From Nocardioides marinisabuli (lineage in GTDB: Bacteria; Actinomycetota; Actinomycetes; Propionibacteriales; Nocardioidaceae), in the NCBI RefSeq assembly GCF_013466785.1, contig NZ_CP059163.1, positions 1,488,001 to 1,552,000 of the forward strand: a DNA stretch of 64,000 nucleotides, given 5' to 3'. Both the position numbers and the translations under genes were made by a program. The notes under the pieces are model-generated. The model searched no databases. It worked only from the letters and a program-made list of their open reading frames with translations, and was not told where the DNA came from. Shown here one piece after another: positions 26,793 through 34,289 of this stretch (position 1 is the stretch's first letter; the number at the start of each line of letters is the position of its first letter).

Positions 26793-27754
26793 CTCCGGGA
26801 CCGGGGGTCGAGAGCCTCGCGCATCGCCTCGCCCAGCAGCGTGAAGCCGAGGGCGGTGAAGGCGATCGCGAAGCCGGGAAGGAGGGCGAGGCGGGCCGCG
26901 GCCTCGAAGCGGTCCTGGGCCGCGACGAGCATGCGGCCCCACTCCGCCACAGCGGGGTCGGCCTCGCCGAGGCCGAGGTAGGACAGCGCCGCGACCTCGA
27001 TGATGGCCGTGGCGAGGTTCAGCGTCGCCTGCACGATGGTCGGTCCGATCGCGTTCGGCACGATGTGGCCGGAGACGATCTTCCGCTTGCGGATGCCGAG
27101 CGCCCCCGCGGCGAGCACGTAGTCGGACTTGCCCTGCGAGAGCATCGAGCCGCGCAGCAGGCGCGCGAAGATCGGCACCTGCGCGGTGCCGATCGCGATC
27201 ATCACGGCGTAGGCGTTCTGACCGAGGACGGCGACGATGCTGACCGCGAGCAGCAGGCTGGGCACCGACAGCATCACGTCGACCAGGCGCATCACCGCGT
27301 TGTCGACCCACGAGCCGACCCGGCCGCCGAGCGCACCGAACCCGCCCGCGACGGCGCCGAGGCCGGCGCCGGCGACGAGGCCGATCGCGGTCGAGATGAC
27401 GCCGTACGCCAGCGACTGGCGGGCCCCGTAGACCAGCTGGGTCCACATGTCGGAGCCGTAGCGGTCCAGGCCCAACCAGTGGTCCTCGGAGGGTCCGGGG
27501 ACCGAGGACGGGGTCACCAGGCCGGCGTCGGCGGTGGAGCCCGGCTCGTAGGACGTCAGCAGCGGGGCGAAGAGGGCGACCAGCACGAAGAGCAGCACGA
27601 TGACCGCCCCGGCGATCGCGGTCGGGTTGCGCCGCAGGCGGCGGAACGCCGCCCGCCAGAGACCGACGCCACCGGCCTCGTCGGGGCCCGCGCCGTGCCC
27701 GCCGCTGCCGGCCAGCATGATCTCGGCGGAGTCGGCGCCCGTCCGGCCGCTCAC
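26789..27754 (-). CDS. dppC: peptide ABC transporter permease (DppC/OppC-like)
   Basis: 321 residues. A cytoplasmic tail, a first membrane helix near 46-68 (AIAGAVIVLLFVLVALFAPLL), the OppC_N-type DHWLGLDRYGSDMWTQLVYGARQSL segment, then a binding-protein-dependent permease domain with the coupling loop YVLAAGALGIRKRKIVSGHIVPN. GTG start overlaps the dppB stop. Pairs with DppB to form the channel. Confidence 0.93.
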   Translation of the reverse strand: MSGRTGADSAEIMLAGSGGHGAGPDEAGGVGLWRAAFRRLRRNPTAIAGAVIVLLFVLVALFAPLLTSYEPGSTADAGLVTPSSVPGPSEDHWLGLDRYGSDMWTQLVYGARQSLAYGVISTAIGLVAGAGLGAVAGGFGALGGRVGSWVDNAVMRLVDVMLSVPSLLLAVSIVAVLGQNAYAVMIAIGTAQVPIFARLLRGSMLSQGKSDYVLAAGALGIRKRKIVSGHIVPNAIGPTIVQATLNLATAIIEVAALSYLGLGEADPAVAEWGRMLVAAQDRFEAAARLALLPGFAIAFTALGFTLLGEAMREALDPRSRR

Positions 27755-28755
27755 GAGACCCTCACCCTGGGGTCGATGACGCCGTAGGCCAGGTCGACGA
27801 GGAGGTTGATCAGGGAGTAGGTGATCGCGATGAAGATGATGAACCCCTGGAGGACGGGGAAGTCGCGCTGGGAGATCGCCTGGAAGAGGTAGCTGCCGAT
27901 CCCGTTGAAGGCGAAGACGCTCTCGGTGAGCACGGCGCCGGAGAGCAGCAGGCCGGCCTGGAGGCCGATGGTGGTGACCACCGGCAGCAGCGCGTTGCGC
28001 AGGACGTGGCGGCGGCTGACGATGCGGCGGCTGAGGCCCTTGGACTCCGCGGTGCGGACGTAGTCCTCGTGCAGCACCTCGGCCACCGAGGCCCGGGTGA
28101 TGCGCACGATGATCGCCAGCGGGATGGTGCCGAGCGCGACCGCGGGCAGGACGAGGTGGACCATCGCGTTGAAGGCGGCGTCCCACTCACGTGTCAGCAG
28201 CCCGTCGAGCACGTAGAAGTTGGTGATGTGGGTGGCGTCCATCCGGGCGTCCTGGCGCAGCGCGGTCGGGAGCAGGCCGAGCCAGTCGGCGAAGACGAGC
28301 TTGAGCAGGATGGCGAGGAAGAACACCGGGGTGGCCACCCCGAGCAGCGAGCCCGACACCACGGCGGTGTCGAGGAAGCGGCCCTGGTTGCGGGCCGCGA
28401 GGTACCCGAGCGGCACCCCGACCACGATCGCGAACAGCAGGGCCGTGGTGGCCAGCTCGATCGTGGCGGGGAACCGTTCGAAGAAGGTCGTCAGGACCGG
28501 CTGGCCGGTCTTGATCGAGTCCCCGAAGTCGCCCTGCAGCAGTGCCTTGACGTAGATCAGGTACTGCTGCAGGAGCGGTTGGTCGAAGCCGTAGGACGCG
28601 TTGACCCGGGCGATCCCCTCCGGGGTGGCGCGCTCCCCCAGCAGCGACCGCGCAGGGTCACCGGGGAGAGCGCGCACCCAGGCGAAGAGGAGCACCGAGA
28701 GGCCGAACAGCACCGGCACCAGCAGCGCCAGGCGCCGCAGCGCGAACTTCAGCAT
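27751..28755 (-). CDS. dppB: peptide ABC transporter permease (DppB/OppB-like)
   Basis: 334 residues. N-terminal FALRRLALLVPVLFGLSVLLF helix with the OppB-type LPGDPARSLLGERATPE segment, then six-helix permease core with coupling loop YVRTAESKGLSRRIVSRRHVLRNALLP and C-terminal INLLVDLAYGVIDPRVR. ATG start 40 nt after the dppA stop; its stop overlaps the dppC start. Confidence 0.93.
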   Translation of the reverse strand: MLKFALRRLALLVPVLFGLSVLLFAWVRALPGDPARSLLGERATPEGIARVNASYGFDQPLLQQYLIYVKALLQGDFGDSIKTGQPVLTTFFERFPATIELATTALLFAIVVGVPLGYLAARNQGRFLDTAVVSGSLLGVATPVFFLAILLKLVFADWLGLLPTALRQDARMDATHITNFYVLDGLLTREWDAAFNAMVHLVLPAVALGTIPLAIIVRITRASVAEVLHEDYVRTAESKGLSRRIVSRRHVLRNALLPVVTTIGLQAGLLLSGAVLTESVFAFNGIGSYLFQAISQRDFPVLQGFIIFIAITYSLINLLVDLAYGVIDPRVRVS

Positions 28756-28795
28756 CGACTGCCTTCGGAGTCAGAGGTGCGGGGACGGGTGCCGG

Positions 28796-30451
28796 TCAGC
28801 CGACCGAGACCACGTTCCAGACCTCGTCCTGCACCGGGCTCTGCTGGTAGCCGCTCACGTCGGGACCGAAGGCCAGCGACGGGACCGGGTGGGCCAGCGG
28901 GACACCGGGCAGGTAGTCCATGACGAGCCTGTTTATCTCCTCGTAGAGTGGCTCCTGCTCCTCGGGCGTGGGCAGTCCGCGGGCCTCGCGCAGGGCGTCG
29001 AAGATCTCCGGGTTGTCGAAGCCCCACTCGCTGCTCTTGGCGCCGAAGAAGACGCCGAGGAAGTTGTCGGTGTCGTTGTAGTCGCCGGTCCACCCGAGCA
29101 GGTGCAGGCCGTGCTTGGAGGTGCCCTGGATCTTCTCGAGGTAGTCGGGGCTCCACTGGTCGGCCGTGGGCTTGATCTTCAGGCCCACCGCCTCGAGCTG
29201 GGAGCGGATCACGTTGAACGTGTCCTCCGGCTGGGGCATGTACGGGCGGCTGACACCGGTCGGGTAGTTGAACTCGATGGTGGCGCCGTCGGCACCGGCG
29301 TCGGCGAGCATCTGCTTGGCGAGCTCGGGGTCGAACTCGTAGGTCTGCACGTCGTCGGTGTAGCCCATCACGCTGTCCGGGATGAACTCGATCGCCGGCT
29401 GGGTGCCCTCGGGCATCGAGGCGCTGATGATCTCCGGGATGTTGAGCGCGTGCGCGATGGCCTGGCGGACCTGGGGGTCGTCCAGCGGCTTCTGCTGCTG
29501 GTTCATGCCGAGGTAGAGGACGTTGAAGGGGTCCCGGTTGACGATCTGGAAGCCCTCCTCCTCGAGCGGCGCGATGTCGGCCGGGCCGACCAGGTCGAAG
29601 CCGTCGATCTCGCCGGCACGCAGCGCGTCGGCACGGGCCTTCGGGTCCTCGATCGCGACCACGACGGCCTCGTCGACGATCGCCGGGTCGCCCCAGTAGT
29701 CGTCGTAGCGCGCCAGGGTGACGTCCTGCCCGCGGTTCCAGGCGTCCAGCATGAACGGGCCGGTGCCCGTGGGGTGCTCGGTGGAGTACGCGGAGTTCTT
29801 CGGGTTGGTGGCCCCGTCGTCCTGGAACTCCTCCAGCGCGCTGGGGCTCTGCATCGAGAACGCCGGCAGCGACAGCGCGGAGATGAAGCCGGCGAAGGGC
29901 TCCTTCAGGTTGATCGTCGCGGTCAGCTCGTCGTCGGCGGTGCAGGAGTCGTAGATCGCGGAGTCGGCGCGGTCGCCGGTCGCGAAGCCGCGGAACAGCG
30001 CCGCGTAGTAGTAGGTCAGGTCGTCGGTCTGGGCCGACTCGGGCATGTTGTACCAGCGGTCGAAGTTCGAGCAGACCGCCTCCGCGTCGAAGGCGGTGCC
30101 GTCGTGGAACGTGACGTCCTCGCGCAGGTCGAAGGTGTAGCTCAGGCCGTCCTCGCCGGTCTCCCACTCGGTCGCGAGCAGCGGCGCGGGGTCGGCCGTC
30201 CCGGGCTCGGTGCCGACGAGGCCCTCGAAGATCTGGCGGGCGACCCGGAAGCTCTCGCCGTCGGAGGCGAAGAACGGGTCGAGGGTCACCGGCTCGGCGG
30301 ACCCGGCGAAGACGAAGGTGCCGCCGCTCGCGCCGTCACCACCGTCGCCCGCGTCGCCGTCGCGCTCGCTCTCGGCACAACTGGTCAGGATCAGCGCAGC
30401 GGCGGCCAGTCCGACCAGACCTGCGCGCGTTGACTTCTGTGTGGACCGCAC
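28796..30451 (-). CDS. dppA: peptide-binding lipoprotein (DppA/OppA-like, SBP family 5)
   Basis: 551 residues. Signal peptide with lipobox ending at Cys25 (ALILTSC), followed by an Asp/Gly linker and the family-5 solute-binding fold: GSAEPVTLDPFFASDGESFRVARQIFEGLVG, LREDVTFHDGTAFDAEAV and NPKNSAYSTEHPTGTGPFMLD. It captures peptides outside the membrane and delivers them to DppBC. GTG start with GAGG about 6 nt upstream. First gene of the operon; a TACTGT hexamer about 60 nt upstream (near 30506) may be its -10. Confidence 0.93.
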   Translation of the reverse strand: MRSTQKSTRAGLVGLAAAALILTSCAESERDGDAGDGGDGASGGTFVFAGSAEPVTLDPFFASDGESFRVARQIFEGLVGTEPGTADPAPLLATEWETGEDGLSYTFDLREDVTFHDGTAFDAEAVCSNFDRWYNMPESAQTDDLTYYYAALFRGFATGDRADSAIYDSCTADDELTATINLKEPFAGFISALSLPAFSMQSPSALEEFQDDGATNPKNSAYSTEHPTGTGPFMLDAWNRGQDVTLARYDDYWGDPAIVDEAVVVAIEDPKARADALRAGEIDGFDLVGPADIAPLEEEGFQIVNRDPFNVLYLGMNQQQKPLDDPQVRQAIAHALNIPEIISASMPEGTQPAIEFIPDSVMGYTDDVQTYEFDPELAKQMLADAGADGATIEFNYPTGVSRPYMPQPEDTFNVIRSQLEAVGLKIKPTADQWSPDYLEKIQGTSKHGLHLLGWTGDYNDTDNFLGVFFGAKSSEWGFDNPEIFDALREARGLPTPEEQEPLYEEINRLVMDYLPGVPLAHPVPSLAFGPDVSGYQQSPVQDEVWNVVSVG

Positions 30452-30660: not shown

Positions 30661-30691
30661 TCCAGCCCGTCGTCGGCGAATGCCTCCGCCG

Positions 30692-33600
30692 TCAGTGCGC
30701 CATGTCGACGAACCGCGAGTAGTGACCCTGGAAGGCGACCGTGATGTCGCGGGTCGGGCCGTTGCGGTGCTTGACCACGAGCAGGTCGGCCTCGCCGGGG
30801 CGGGTCGACTCCTTCTCGTAGGCGTCCTCGCGGTGCAGCAGGATCACCATGTCGGCGTCCTGCTCGATGCTGTTGTGCAGGGCGATGCCGTTGGCGACGA
30901 AGTTGTGCACGCCCAGGACCGTGGCGTCGTACACCGGCTGCTCGCCGATGGGCTCGACGCTGGCGATGGCATCCCAGTAGATGTCGTTGGTGGCCAGGAC
31001 CTCGAGGTCGGCGTCGCCGAGGACTCCGGCCACCTCGGCCAGCCGTTCGCGGCTCGGGGCGTGCTTCCACATGGTCGAGCCGCCGAACGAGGTCCCCATG
31101 GCGGTGGCGAACTCGCGGTGCGTCATCCGGCGGTCCGCCAGCTCCTGGCGCACGCGCCCCCAGACCTCCTGCGGCACGGTGTCGAGGTTGGTGTTGGGCC
31201 GGACGTCGCGCAGCGCCGCCGCGAGGCGGGCGACCTGCTCGCCGCGGGCACCGTGCACCCCGATGTCGTCGAGGAACCGCAGCTGGTTCTCGGCCCCGAC
31301 GACGTGCACGTGCCAGCCGTCGCGGTAGCCGGCCTTGCGGACCCGCTTGATGCGGGTGAAGACGTTGAACCTGGCGAGGAGCCTGGTCACGTCGTCGGCG
31401 AGGCGGCGGCTCGTGGTGGCGTAGTAGACCCTGCCCGTCCCGCGCTTCTCGTCCAGGTGGACGCACCCGTCGGTGGCCCACAGGTGGTGCAGGAAGAGGC
31501 CCACCTGCTCCTTGGGCAGCCCGAAGACCCAGTCGGGCACGAACTTCTGGTGGCTGCGGAGACCGAAGAGCGCGTCCTCGTCGAGCCAGGCCGCGATCGG
31601 GTTGCGCCGGCCACGGGCGAGCCGGTACGGCGCGGGGAGGCGCAGCGTGGTGACCCGGGCGGCCGGGTACTCGTCGCGGACCGCGGTGATGCCGAACCGG
31701 CGGGAGGCAGCCTCGGCCACCGCCGCGAGGTTGGCCTCGTCGACGCTGGCGTAGCGCAGCGGCTGGCGCTCGACGAAGGACCCGTCACCGAGCAGGTGCG
31801 CGAGCAGGACGACCTCGTCGGGGTCGCGCGGAGTGATCTGCATCGGGGGCGGCACGTGGCGCACCGAGCCCACGCGCGAGCCGGTCGTCAGCTCGGCCAG
31901 CGGCACCCAGCCGTCGTAGGTCAGGAACGGGTGGTTGCCGGTCGCCTCCACCGTGCGCCCCGAGGCGAGCGTGACCCGGTACGTCGCCTTCGTCCCGCTG
32001 GGGAAGGCGTGCGTCAGGGTGCGCGGCACCAGCTTGAGCCGCTCGTCCAACGCCCAGACGGGGACGTCGGTCGCGCCCGTCGCCATCAGCTCGCCCAGGG
32101 TGATCTCGGCGTTCGTGTCGGCGCGCAGGAGCCGGGTGTCGGCGGTCAGGCAGCCGGACTCACGCAGGTCGCTCATGGCAGGGCGCTTGTCGGCGCGCTG
32201 CTCAGAGCCACGGTTGAGCTGCGACAGCGCGATGATCGGGACCTCGAGCTCCTTGGCCAGCAGCTTGATCTGGCGCGAGAACTCCGAGACCTCGAGCTGG
32301 CGCGACTCGACCTTCTTGCCCGAGCTCATCAGCTGCAGGTAGTCGATGACGATCAGCTGCAGGTCGTGCTTCTGCTTCAGCCGCCGCGCCTTCGCGCGGA
32401 TCTCCATCATCGTCATGTTGGGGCTGTCGTCGATGAAGACTGGGGCCGAGGAGACCTCGCCCATCTTGCGCGCCAGCTTGGTCCAGTCGTCGTCACCCAT
32501 CGCGCCGTTGCGGATGTGGTTGAGCGGCACCTTCGCCTCGGCCGAGAGCAGACGCATGGTGATCTCGGAGCGCGTCATCTCGAGGCTGAAGAAGACGCTG
32601 GTCAGGTTGTTGTGGATCGACGCCGCACGGCAGAAGTCGAGGGCCAGGGTGGAGTTGTGCGTCGGGATCATCGACCGACCCGCGAGATACAGGTGGTCCT
32701 CGTTGTCCACCTGGACGCAGCGCACCGGGACGGACTCCACCGCCACGACGTCGACGAGCTTCACCTCGGACCCGTCGGGCATGGCGATCACATGCGTGGC
32801 GCCGCGGTCTGCGGCCAGCTCGGCAGTCGTGGCCACTCCGCTGCGGCCGGTCGCCAGTGCCGTGGTCAACCACTGGTGCTCGGCGTCGGCGACGATCCGC
32901 GAACCGTCGGAGAACTCGACCTCGTAGCAGGGCCGTCCGGTCATCACGTCGGTCGCCGCGACCACCCTGGTGGGACGACCCTGGGCGTCGTACAGCAGGT
33001 CGCCGACCGCGACGTCCCCCATGGTGGTCCACCCGGTCGGGGTGGGCAGTGGGGTGTCGAGCGCCAGTGCCTTGCCCATGGCGGGGCGGGCCGCGACGAT
33101 GATCATCTGGCCCTTGTGCAGGCCGTTGGTCAGCTCGTCGAGGTCGGCGAACCCGGTGGGCACGCCGTAGATGCCCGACTCGCGGTTGCCGATCGCCTCG
33201 ATCTCGTCGAGGACGCCGTCCATGATGTCGGAGAGCGGGGCGTAGTCCTCGCCCGACCGCTTCTCGGCGAGCTTGAAGACCTCGGCCTGGGCCTGGTCGA
33301 CGATGTCGTCGACCTCGCCCTCGCCGGCGTAGCCGATCTGCACGATCTTGGTGCCGGCGTCGACGAGGCGGCGCAGCACCGCCTTCTCGCGCACGATCTC
33401 GGCGTAGTAGCCCGCGTTCGCCGCGATCGGGACGTTGGCAGACAGCGTGTGCAGGTAGGGGGCCCCGCCGACCTTCTGCAGCTCACCCCGACGCTGCAGC
33501 TCGGCGGCGACGGTGACCATGTCGACCGGCTCGCTGCGGCCGTAGAGGTCGATGATCGCGTCGTGGATCGTCTCGTGGGAGGGCCGGTAGAAGTCGCCGC

Positions 33601-33811
33601 CGCGCACCCGCTCGGTGACCTCGGAGATCGCGTCCTTGCTGATCAGCATCGAGCCCAGCACCGACTGCTCGGCGGCCATGTCCTGCGGCGGCGTGCGGTC
33701 GTTGGGGCCGCTGCGCGGACGCTCGCCCGGCGCGTAGGAGACGGGCCCGTCGCCCCAGTCCTCGTAGGGCGGCTCCTCGGCCGTGCGGCCGCTCTGCTCG
33801 GTGACGCTCAA
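30692..33811 (-). CDS. dnaB: replicative DNA helicase DnaB with two inteins
   Basis: 1039-residue precursor; the spliced helicase would be 473 residues, normal for DnaB. DnaB unwinds DNA ahead of the replisome. Exteins: residues 1-247 (N-terminal domain, linker helix, first half of Walker A ARPAMGK), 387-553 (RecA-like core with FFSLEM, VIDYLQLM, IIALSQLNRG) and 981-1039 (SIEQDADMVILLHRE to the end). The first intein interrupts Walker A between GK and S; the second lies between RESG and SIEQD. Start: TTG at 33811, chosen because GGGAG is about 7 nt upstream and MSVTEQSGRT matches actinobacterial DnaB N-termini; an open frame continues to 33892. Both inteins must splice to give an active enzyme. 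Confidence 0.95.
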   Translation of the reverse strand: MSVTEQSGRTAEEPPYEDWGDGPVSYAPGERPRSGPNDRTPPQDMAAEQSVLGSMLISKDAISEVTERVRGGDFYRPSHETIHDAIIDLYGRSEPVDMVTVAAELQRRGELQKVGGAPYLHTLSANVPIAANAGYYAEIVREKAVLRRLVDAGTKIVQIGYAGEGEVDDIVDQAQAEVFKLAEKRSGEDYAPLSDIMDGVLDEIEAIGNRESGIYGVPTGFADLDELTNGLHKGQMIIVAARPAMGKALALDTPLPTPTGWTTMGDVAVGDLLYDAQGRPTRVVAATDVMTGRPCYEVEFSDGSRIVADAEHQWLTTALATGRSGVATTAELAADRGATHVIAMPDGSEVKLVDVVAVESVPVRCVQVDNEDHLYLAGRSMIPTHNSTLALDFCRAASIHNNLTSVFFSLEMTRSEITMRLLSAEAKVPLNHIRNGAMGDDDWTKLARKMGEVSSAPVFIDDSPNMTMMEIRAKARRLKQKHDLQLIVIDYLQLMSSGKKVESRQLEVSEFSRQIKLLAKELEVPIIALSQLNRGSEQRADKRPAMSDLRESGCLTADTRLLRADTNAEITLGELMATGATDVPVWALDERLKLVPRTLTHAFPSGTKATYRVTLASGRTVEATGNHPFLTYDGWVPLAELTTGSRVGSVRHVPPPMQITPRDPDEVVLLAHLLGDGSFVERQPLRYASVDEANLAAVAEAASRRFGITAVRDEYPAARVTTLRLPAPYRLARGRRNPIAAWLDEDALFGLRSHQKFVPDWVFGLPKEQVGLFLHHLWATDGCVHLDEKRGTGRVYYATTSRRLADDVTRLLARFNVFTRIKRVRKAGYRDGWHVHVVGAENQLRFLDDIGVHGARGEQVARLAAALRDVRPNTNLDTVPQEVWGRVRQELADRRMTHREFATAMGTSFGGSTMWKHAPSRERLAEVAGVLGDADLEVLATNDIYWDAIASVEPIGEQPVYDATVLGVHNFVANGIALHNSIEQDADMVILLHREDAYEKESTRPGEADLLVVKHRNGPTRDITVAFQGHYSRFVDMAH
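30872..32152 (-). other. DnaB intein 2: 427-residue intein with homing endonuclease region
   Basis: Precursor residues 554-980. Starts with Cys (CLTADTRLL), block B is TGNHPFL, ends with ALHN, and the next extein residue is Ser: a standard class 1 intein. LLAHLLGDGSF and LFLHHLWATDGCV, about 100 residues apart, are the two LAGLIDADG-type motifs (blocks C and E), each with an acidic residue, so the endonuclease may be active. Insertion after RESG is a known DnaB site. Confidence 0.92.
32654..33070 (-). other. DnaB intein 1: 139-residue class 3 mini-intein
   Basis: Precursor residues 248-386. It starts with Ala (ALALDTPLPT), not Cys or Ser. The class 3 W-C-T triplet is visible: Trp in block B (AEHQWL), Cys in block F (VPVRCVQVD) and Thr before the terminal His-Asn (IPTHN). 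No endonuclease domain. Insertion in the Walker A motif matches the mycobacterial DnaB-1 site. Confidence 0.92.
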
Positions 33812-33892
33812 CGTGCTCTCCCATGGCTGGTCCCGGACCGACCCCGTGCCGGCTGGGCCGGTGCCCACGACGCTAGGACCGGCCACCGACAA

Positions 33893-34289
33893 CGCGGCGC
33901 CGGACCTCGTGGAGACCGGTCCCGGACGACGTCTCGAGGACCTCGTCCGCGTGACCGTACGTGGGGATCCGCCTCAGCGGAAAGCGAGTTGTCCACAGGG
34001 CCTGGGGATAACCCGGGGATGCCCGTGGACGACACGCGAGGACGTGTGCACTGCCTGGGGACACAACTGTGGAGAACCAAGTCACGGCAACGACAAAACG
34101 CCCTCTGACCTGGGCGAACGGATCTCCCCACCTGTGGACAGAAAATTGTGGGCAGGACGACGTCGTTCACCCGCCGGCCGCGCTCCGGATGCCTGGATGT
34201 TTGTCGACAAAGCGTCGACTAGCGCAGTTTCCACAACTTGTCCCCAATACGGGACAGATGCCGGCGACCGGTCTCGACCAGCACGCGCC
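33893..34289. other. dnaB/MATE divergent intergenic region with DnaA-box-like cluster
   Basis: Longest AT-richer stretch in the window. One exact actinobacterial DnaA box TTGTCCACA (33989-33997) and four one-mismatch boxes: TGTGGAGAA (34068-34076), TGTGGACAG (34133-34141), TTGTCGACA in a 12-bp palindrome (34200-34211), and TTGTCCCCA (34238-34246). No gene is supported here. It may be a DnaA-controlled promoter or a titration site; synteny argues against it being oriC. Confidence 0.65.

Follow-up and report, generated by a model that had tools for sequence, protein, structure and literature searches.

The window analyzed here, a stretch of 64,000 nucleotides from Nocardioides marinisabuli (contig NZ_CP059163.1, positions 1,488,001 to 1,552,000), contains a dnaB gene, very probably that of an essential replicative helicase into which two mobile protein introns (inteins) of different class have inserted. 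A class 3 mini-intein (intein 1) interrupts the P-loop at site DnaB-b, and a class 1 intein with a LAGLIDADG homing endonuclease (HEN; intein 2) is located at site DnaB-a. The same arrangement has been published for Mycobacterium smegmatis, so the Nocardioides case belongs to a known kind; a DnaB with two inteins is already described, and what is added is a member in Nocardioides and the comparison with relatives. Both inteins have most likely circulated for a long time as mobile elements, and any regulatory role in the Nocardioides host would be hypothetical.

The two inteins of DnaB

The gene is a single open reading frame (ORF) on the minus strand, running from a TTG at 33811 to a stop at 30692, and was assigned to DnaB by the NCBIfam models PRK07773.1 and TIGR00665. 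Since a search of the whole genome (4.17 Mb) gave no second DnaB match, the host presumably depends on splicing.

Intein 1 sits between AARPAMGK and STLALDF. It starts with Ala1, and so has no Cys or Ser at position 1, contains only two cysteines (48 and 118) and has tryptophans at positions 14 and 67. The C-terminus is PTHN (T137, H138, N139), followed by the nucleophile Ser+1. Class 3 inteins are defined by a WCT triplet in blocks B, F and G (PMC5050341), which is represented here by W67, C118 and T137 in the alignment to 6bs8. Intein 1 can be aligned over its full length with both M. smegmatis DnaBi1 (6bs8/6own, E 1.2e-46) and the M. chimaera intein (6rix), and the seven best PDB matches of its AlphaFold2 (AF2) model (mean pLDDT 94) are all chains of 6bs8, 6rix and 6riy. 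With 139 residues and no LAGLIDADG match in the Pfam search it is a mini-intein. By homology, Cys118 would attack the Lys-Ala1 bond, the Walker A serine (Ser+1) would then accept the N-extein, and Asn139 would cyclize, restoring the P-loop.

Intein 2 sits between LRESG and SIEQDADM and is of class 1, with Cys1, a C-terminal HN427, Ser+1 and a Pfam Intein_splicing match; it also matches LAGLIDADG_3 (PF14528). It would splice by the canonical Cys1/Ser+1 class 1 route while still carrying its HEN. The dN/dS of the HEN part is 0.105 and 0.135 between the window species and two related species, and the HEN is under purifying selection. A dead HEN was considered and rejected on these values and on the presence of both LAGLIDADG-type motifs.

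A preliminary description of the sequence had claimed a DnaB with two inteins of different mechanistic class, and the class residues, profiles and homology bear this out. It was likewise right in describing the first segment as a 139-residue, Ala-initiated W-C-T mini-intein in Walker A (Ala1, W67/C118/T137, Asn139), the second as a Cys-initiated 427-residue intein with two LAGLIDADG-type motifs, and both as occupying known DnaB sites (b, the P-loop; a, motif H4; naming from PMC6195587). Its statement that the two must splice in order is unsupported: the fast splicing of DnaBi2 and slow splicing of DnaBi1 in M. smegmatis is a matter of kinetics and not of obligation. Each intein presumably must splice before DnaB works, with no fixed order, and by analogy intein 2 would be the fast one and intein 1 the slow one.

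The alternative of ordinary helicase insertions, for one segment or both, has next to no probability; nothing was found in its favor, and it was rejected, since the sites are empty in relatives. The DnaB of a close relative (G083) is contiguous across both sites, with 98% identity over residues 1-473, showing that an intein-free form exists, and both segments match inteins. Three points weigh against the two-intein account. Intein 1 has no significant Pfam match, and its class assignment therefore rests on the WCT residues and the homology to 6bs8 and 6rix; the splicing of both inteins is predicted from DNA alone; and the activity of the intein 2 HEN would follow from its motifs and the selection on it only.

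Table 1. Features of the dnaB gene in the window
Feature	Position	Strand	Description
dnaB precursor, replicative DNA helicase	30692..33811	-	1039 aa; 473 aa with both inteins removed; putative TTG start at 33811
N-extein	33071..33811	-	247 aa; Walker A end ...AARPAMGK; Pfam DnaB N-terminal domain
Intein 1, class 3 mini-intein, site DnaB-b (P-loop)	32654..33070	-	139 aa; from residues, 6bs8/6rix alignment and AF2 fold
Cys48 codon	32927..32929	-	disulfide partner in M. smegmatis DnaBi1 (PMC6195587)
Trp67, W of WCT triplet, block B	32870..32872	-	W in 206/206 DnaB-b inteins, partly pre-selected by the search pattern
Cys118, class 3 initiating nucleophile by homology, block F	32717..32719	-	C in 206/206 DnaB-b inteins
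Thr137-His138-Asn139, block G	32654..32662	-	from sequence
Middle extein	32153..32653	-	167 aa; first residue Ser+1 (Walker A serine); end ...SDLRESG
Intein 2, class 1 with LAGLIDADG HEN, site DnaB-a (H4 loop)	30872..32152	-	427 aa
LAGLIDADG-type motif 1, LAHLLGDG	31781..31804	-	coordinates derived by hand
LAGLIDADG-type motif 2, LHHLWATDG	31466..31492	-	coordinates derived by hand
C-extein	30695..30871	-	59 aa; begins SIEQDADMV

An antisense ORF of 1142 residues lies over dnaB on the plus strand (30680-34108); it was rejected as a gene by eye and taken for a mirror frame in DNA of 73% GC. The adjacent ORFs on the strand of dnaB (27751-30451, minus) appear by eye to encode a peptide ABC transporter permease and a substrate-binding protein.

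Comparison with known inteins

The M. smegmatis inteins are DnaBi1, of class 3 (C48, C118, N139) at site b, and DnaBi2, of class 1 with a HEN at site a (PMC6195587). The N. marinisabuli gene resembles this pair (6bs8, 6own) in having both sites of the same gene occupied and both classes present. Intein 1 shares with DnaBi1 the length of 139 residues, C48, C118, N139 and Ser+1, and intein 2 shares with DnaBi2 Cys1 and the HEN, with 427 residues here and N425 as the terminal residue there. The host is different (Nocardioides), the identity of intein 1 to its counterpart is about 60% by structural alignment, and splicing and redox response are predicted here from homology. The M. chimaera DnaB1 intein (6rix, PMC7664689) likewise has the WCT motif and His65 and is a mini-intein of class 3, but is 145 residues long, the difference from intein 1 being mainly in the linker. 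Closest is the class 3 intein at DnaB-b of another Nocardioides (G079), which occupies the same site in a near-identical DnaB and has sister splicing blocks, with 67 of 69 N-terminal residues identical to those of intein 1. That intein is 378 residues long with a HEN domain, where intein 1 has a 42-residue linker. A replicative helicase with two inteins (MCM-a and MCM-d), one of them in Walker A, is also reported from Haloferax (PMC10643990). Unlike the window case, the Haloferax MCM is archaeal and both inteins have a HEN; co-homing is not supported there.

Cys48 and possible redox sensitivity of intein 1

M. smegmatis DnaBi1 is described as a slow-splicing intein that oxidants inhibit reversibly, with formation of a C48-C118 disulfide, and DnaBi2 as a fast one (PMC6195587). 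The same paper terms Cys48 non-conserved, and reports that splicing was lost in all the Cys48 mutants made (A, S, T, M, E, D and H). In the literature searched, "class 3 intein" together with "Cys48" was found only in that paper. The DnaB-b inteins collected here (206 rows, 200 once duplicates were removed) have Cys at position 48 in 199 of 200 distinct sequences. The sole exception is that of Promicromonospora umidemergens (L093, 3251-5107), a natural C48T within an uninterrupted DnaB frame of 618 residues; this intein contains one cysteine, which makes an intramolecular disulfide impossible. In 80 viral loci, 81 of the 84 aligned class 3 N-blocks have Cys at 48, the exceptions being one N-block each in L168, L170 and L172; many of these inteins are in host proteins other than DnaB, judged by the look of the N-exteins. 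Residue 48 was absent from all search patterns, and as the searches favor close relatives the conservation is claimed for these relatives only. On the simplest reading, the DnaB-b and viral class 3 relatives need Cys48 for splicing, and the disulfide trap is a by-product.

Redox sensitivity of intein 1 is suggested by homology. Since both Cys48 and Cys118 are present, stress gating, which the preliminary description had raised, is possible: oxidation would form the Cys48-Cys118 disulfide, pausing the splicing of intein 1 and hence replication, as a trait selected for. Such a gate would be consistent with the effect of H2O2 on M. smegmatis DnaBi1 (PMC6195587) and its inhibition by zinc (PMC7360933) and by reactive chlorine (PMC8557812). 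However, a residue that is required for splicing in M. smegmatis and near-invariant in the DnaB-b and viral relatives is explained without regulation, and finding it here does not point to an adaptation for gating replication. Moreover, site b holds a mini-intein, a HEN-sized intein or nothing within four close species, a pattern that fits poorly with an essential regulator. The gate is thus possible but not favored by the sequence evidence, and appears quite unlikely.

Distribution in Nocardioides

DnaB was tallied by hand in 215 Nocardioides genomes (3 with no match, 5 fragmentary). Site b is empty in 163 of them, 19 of which have an intein at a, and occupied in 44. Known in size are 43 of the site-b inteins (G194 is the other occupied genome): an intein at a accompanies 8 of the 13 minis and 3 of the 30 HEN-sized forms (200 residues or more). 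Two of the 43 with broken frames, G190 (mini, a occupied) and G234 (HEN-sized, a empty), belong to this census and stand outside the tests on 41 inteins given below. Frames of dnaB broken by stops or shifts were seen in G023 (L237), G190 (L235), G187 (L236) and G234 (L224) and may be sequencing errors; the assembly completeness of G187 is 70% and that of G190 61%.

The preliminary description had proposed comparing related strains, and four close species do differ in the occupancy of both sites. The window genome (G000) has a mini of 139 residues at b and 427 residues at a, G079 has 378 and 427 residues, G013 an empty b and 427 residues at a, and G083 is empty at both. The three copies of intein 2 (G000, G079, G013) are 90-96% identical in DNA. 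In a tree of the splicing blocks of the 41 Nocardioides inteins, the window mini and the HEN-sized intein of G079 are sisters (100/98, with the bootstrap not fully settled). At least 9 changes between mini and HEN state are required on this tree and at least 10 on the extein tree. All 12 Nocardioides minis that were read have one homologous linker in common, the motif of which occurs in 12/12 minis and 0/29 HEN-sized inteins; a profile built from the other 11 minis finds the window linker at 2.7e-16, as compared to 2.6e-4 for the highest-scoring HEN-sized middle.

Sister blocks with differing middles, together with the one shared mini linker, argue for exchange rather than repeated decay. The middle thus seems to pass from one allele to another through recombination in the conserved blocks, instead of being deleted again and again. 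Against this, the splicing blocks of intein 1 in G000 and of its counterpart in G079 differ by a dS of 0.46 (from about 75 synonymous sites), as compared to 0.20 for the exteins, which makes a separate gain from related donors possible.

HEN-sized inteins at DnaB-b in the Actinomycetes

Mycobacterial DnaB-b inteins are stated in PMC5050341 to be without endonucleases. An even draw of 394 Actinomycetes genomes was searched for comparison (the class sample), and 122 had a match; 5 of these were from Nocardioides, 91 regions were retrieved, and 26 were left out as weak matches or short frames, probably not DnaB. Three of the 91 were dropped (L358, unparsed; L290, cut by a contig end; L348, flanks unlike DnaB). 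The remaining 88 DnaB-b inteins outside Nocardioides comprise 10 minis and 78 HEN-sized forms, with both LAGLIDADG-type motifs found by a simple pattern in 49 of the 78. HEN-sized forms occur in 18 families in the class sample and Nocardioides together. In one genus (g15, taken to be Mycobacterium), 5 minis stand beside 8 HEN-sized forms, of which 3 carry both motifs. At DnaB-b, HEN-sized class 3 inteins are thus common; in a literature search judged by titles and the beginnings of abstracts, HEN-bearing class 3 inteins at this site were not found reported. A further set of 80 named loci, the best of 567, consists of minis throughout; 3 of these loci lack the downstream extein.

Several other loci were noted in passing. 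In L286 (G304) the insertion at site a is just 218 residues long, beside a 361-residue intein at b, and is possibly a HEN-less DnaB-a intein. L016 and L373 (G057:C1:6971000-6977500) belong to a frame of 1817 residues, an FtsK/Tra-type ATPase by eye, with at least two class 3 HEN-bearing inteins; L019 is another such intein in a different frame of the same genome (G057). Contigs titled Bifidobacterium breve and Acidobacteria metagenome-assembled genome (L044, L098) carry mycobacterial-looking DnaB-b inteins and exteins and are probably mis-binned.

Association of minis at b with inteins at a

Minis at site b go together with an intein at site a. The p values given here are uncorrected, and the variants run differed in length cut (two), direction (both), data set (two) and HEN-state grouping (several). 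In Nocardioides, a is occupied in 7/12 minis and 3/29 HEN-sized inteins (p 0.0028), and in the class sample in 7/10 and 18/78 (p 0.0047). Among 129 genes unselected for size, 14 phylogenetically independent pairs gave 6.4 in this direction and 0.1 in the opposite one (median p 0.031, range 0.0078-0.45); with 71 named minis added, 23 pairs gave 10.5 and 0.4 (median p 0.002, range 0.0001-0.18). A Pagel-type test on the 129 genes gave p 0.0026, with one rate at its upper limit and one near zero, so that single rates are left uninterpreted. The association is the most useful lead of the comparison, rather than proof, and fits a HEN-less mini hitch-hiking on its neighbor.

Under co-homing, the endonuclease encoded at site a, 501 bp away, would set off gene conversion that carries the mini along and so keeps or spreads it at b. 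Besides the association itself, this would agree with the length of the site-a inteins beside minis (47/56 of 400 residues or more) and with the co-mobilization by neighboring endonucleases known in phage introns (PMC10643990). According to that paper, any homing of the M. smegmatis mini would have to depend on co-homing, and further work is needed; for the haloarchaeal MCM the paper disfavors co-homing. Here, DnaB-b inteins with a degenerate HEN are not enriched for an intein at a (7/30 vs 14/77 with an intact HEN, p 0.59; pairs median p 1), "intact" and "degenerate" being called by a simple motif pattern. Minis and degenerate forms pooled against intact ones gave a median p of 0.146 in pairs, and the pair test of minis within Nocardioides alone gave a median p of 0.125. 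Co-divergence of the two inteins is not specific to minis, as partial Mantel tests gave r 0.18 (p 0.016) in 56 genes with a mini and r 0.43 (p 0.02) in 20 with a HEN-sized intein. In three of the Nocardioides with a mini (G136, G186, G223) the site-a intein is short and lacks the motifs searched for. Co-homing is therefore a possible explanation, though it falls somewhat short of being probable.

Alternatively, the minis may be old fixed inteins with a decayed HEN, and the double occupancy may come from long residence or from mutual interference between the HENs. Interference between neighboring inteins has been shown in Haloferax (PMC10643990), and 9/56 site-a inteins that accompany a mini fall below 400 residues. 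However, the site-a inteins beside minis are mostly of full length, 47/56 as compared to 16/21 in HEN-sized hosts. The at least 9-10 changes of state in Nocardioides, the sisters that differ and the one linker in 12 minis also speak for exchange instead. Decay, too, is an explanation to be entertained but somewhat less than probable.

Significance

The broadest reading combines these results: the HEN-less minis at DnaB-b would be mainly passengers of the HEN-bearing inteins at DnaB-a, with the middle swapped and the blocks staying, and the C48-C118 redox toggle would be an ancestral by-product of a cysteine needed for splicing and not a mycobacterial stress adaptation. Taken as a whole it is tentative and rather unlikely. 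The comparison makes testable whether a HEN-less intein can home with the help of its neighbor, the question raised in PMC10643990, and the four very close Nocardioides (mini with a, HEN-sized with a, empty with a, and empty at both) are a ready set. Whether Cys48 is a sensor or merely a required residue can now be tested as well, with the natural C48T of P. umidemergens L093 as a control for the redox switch.

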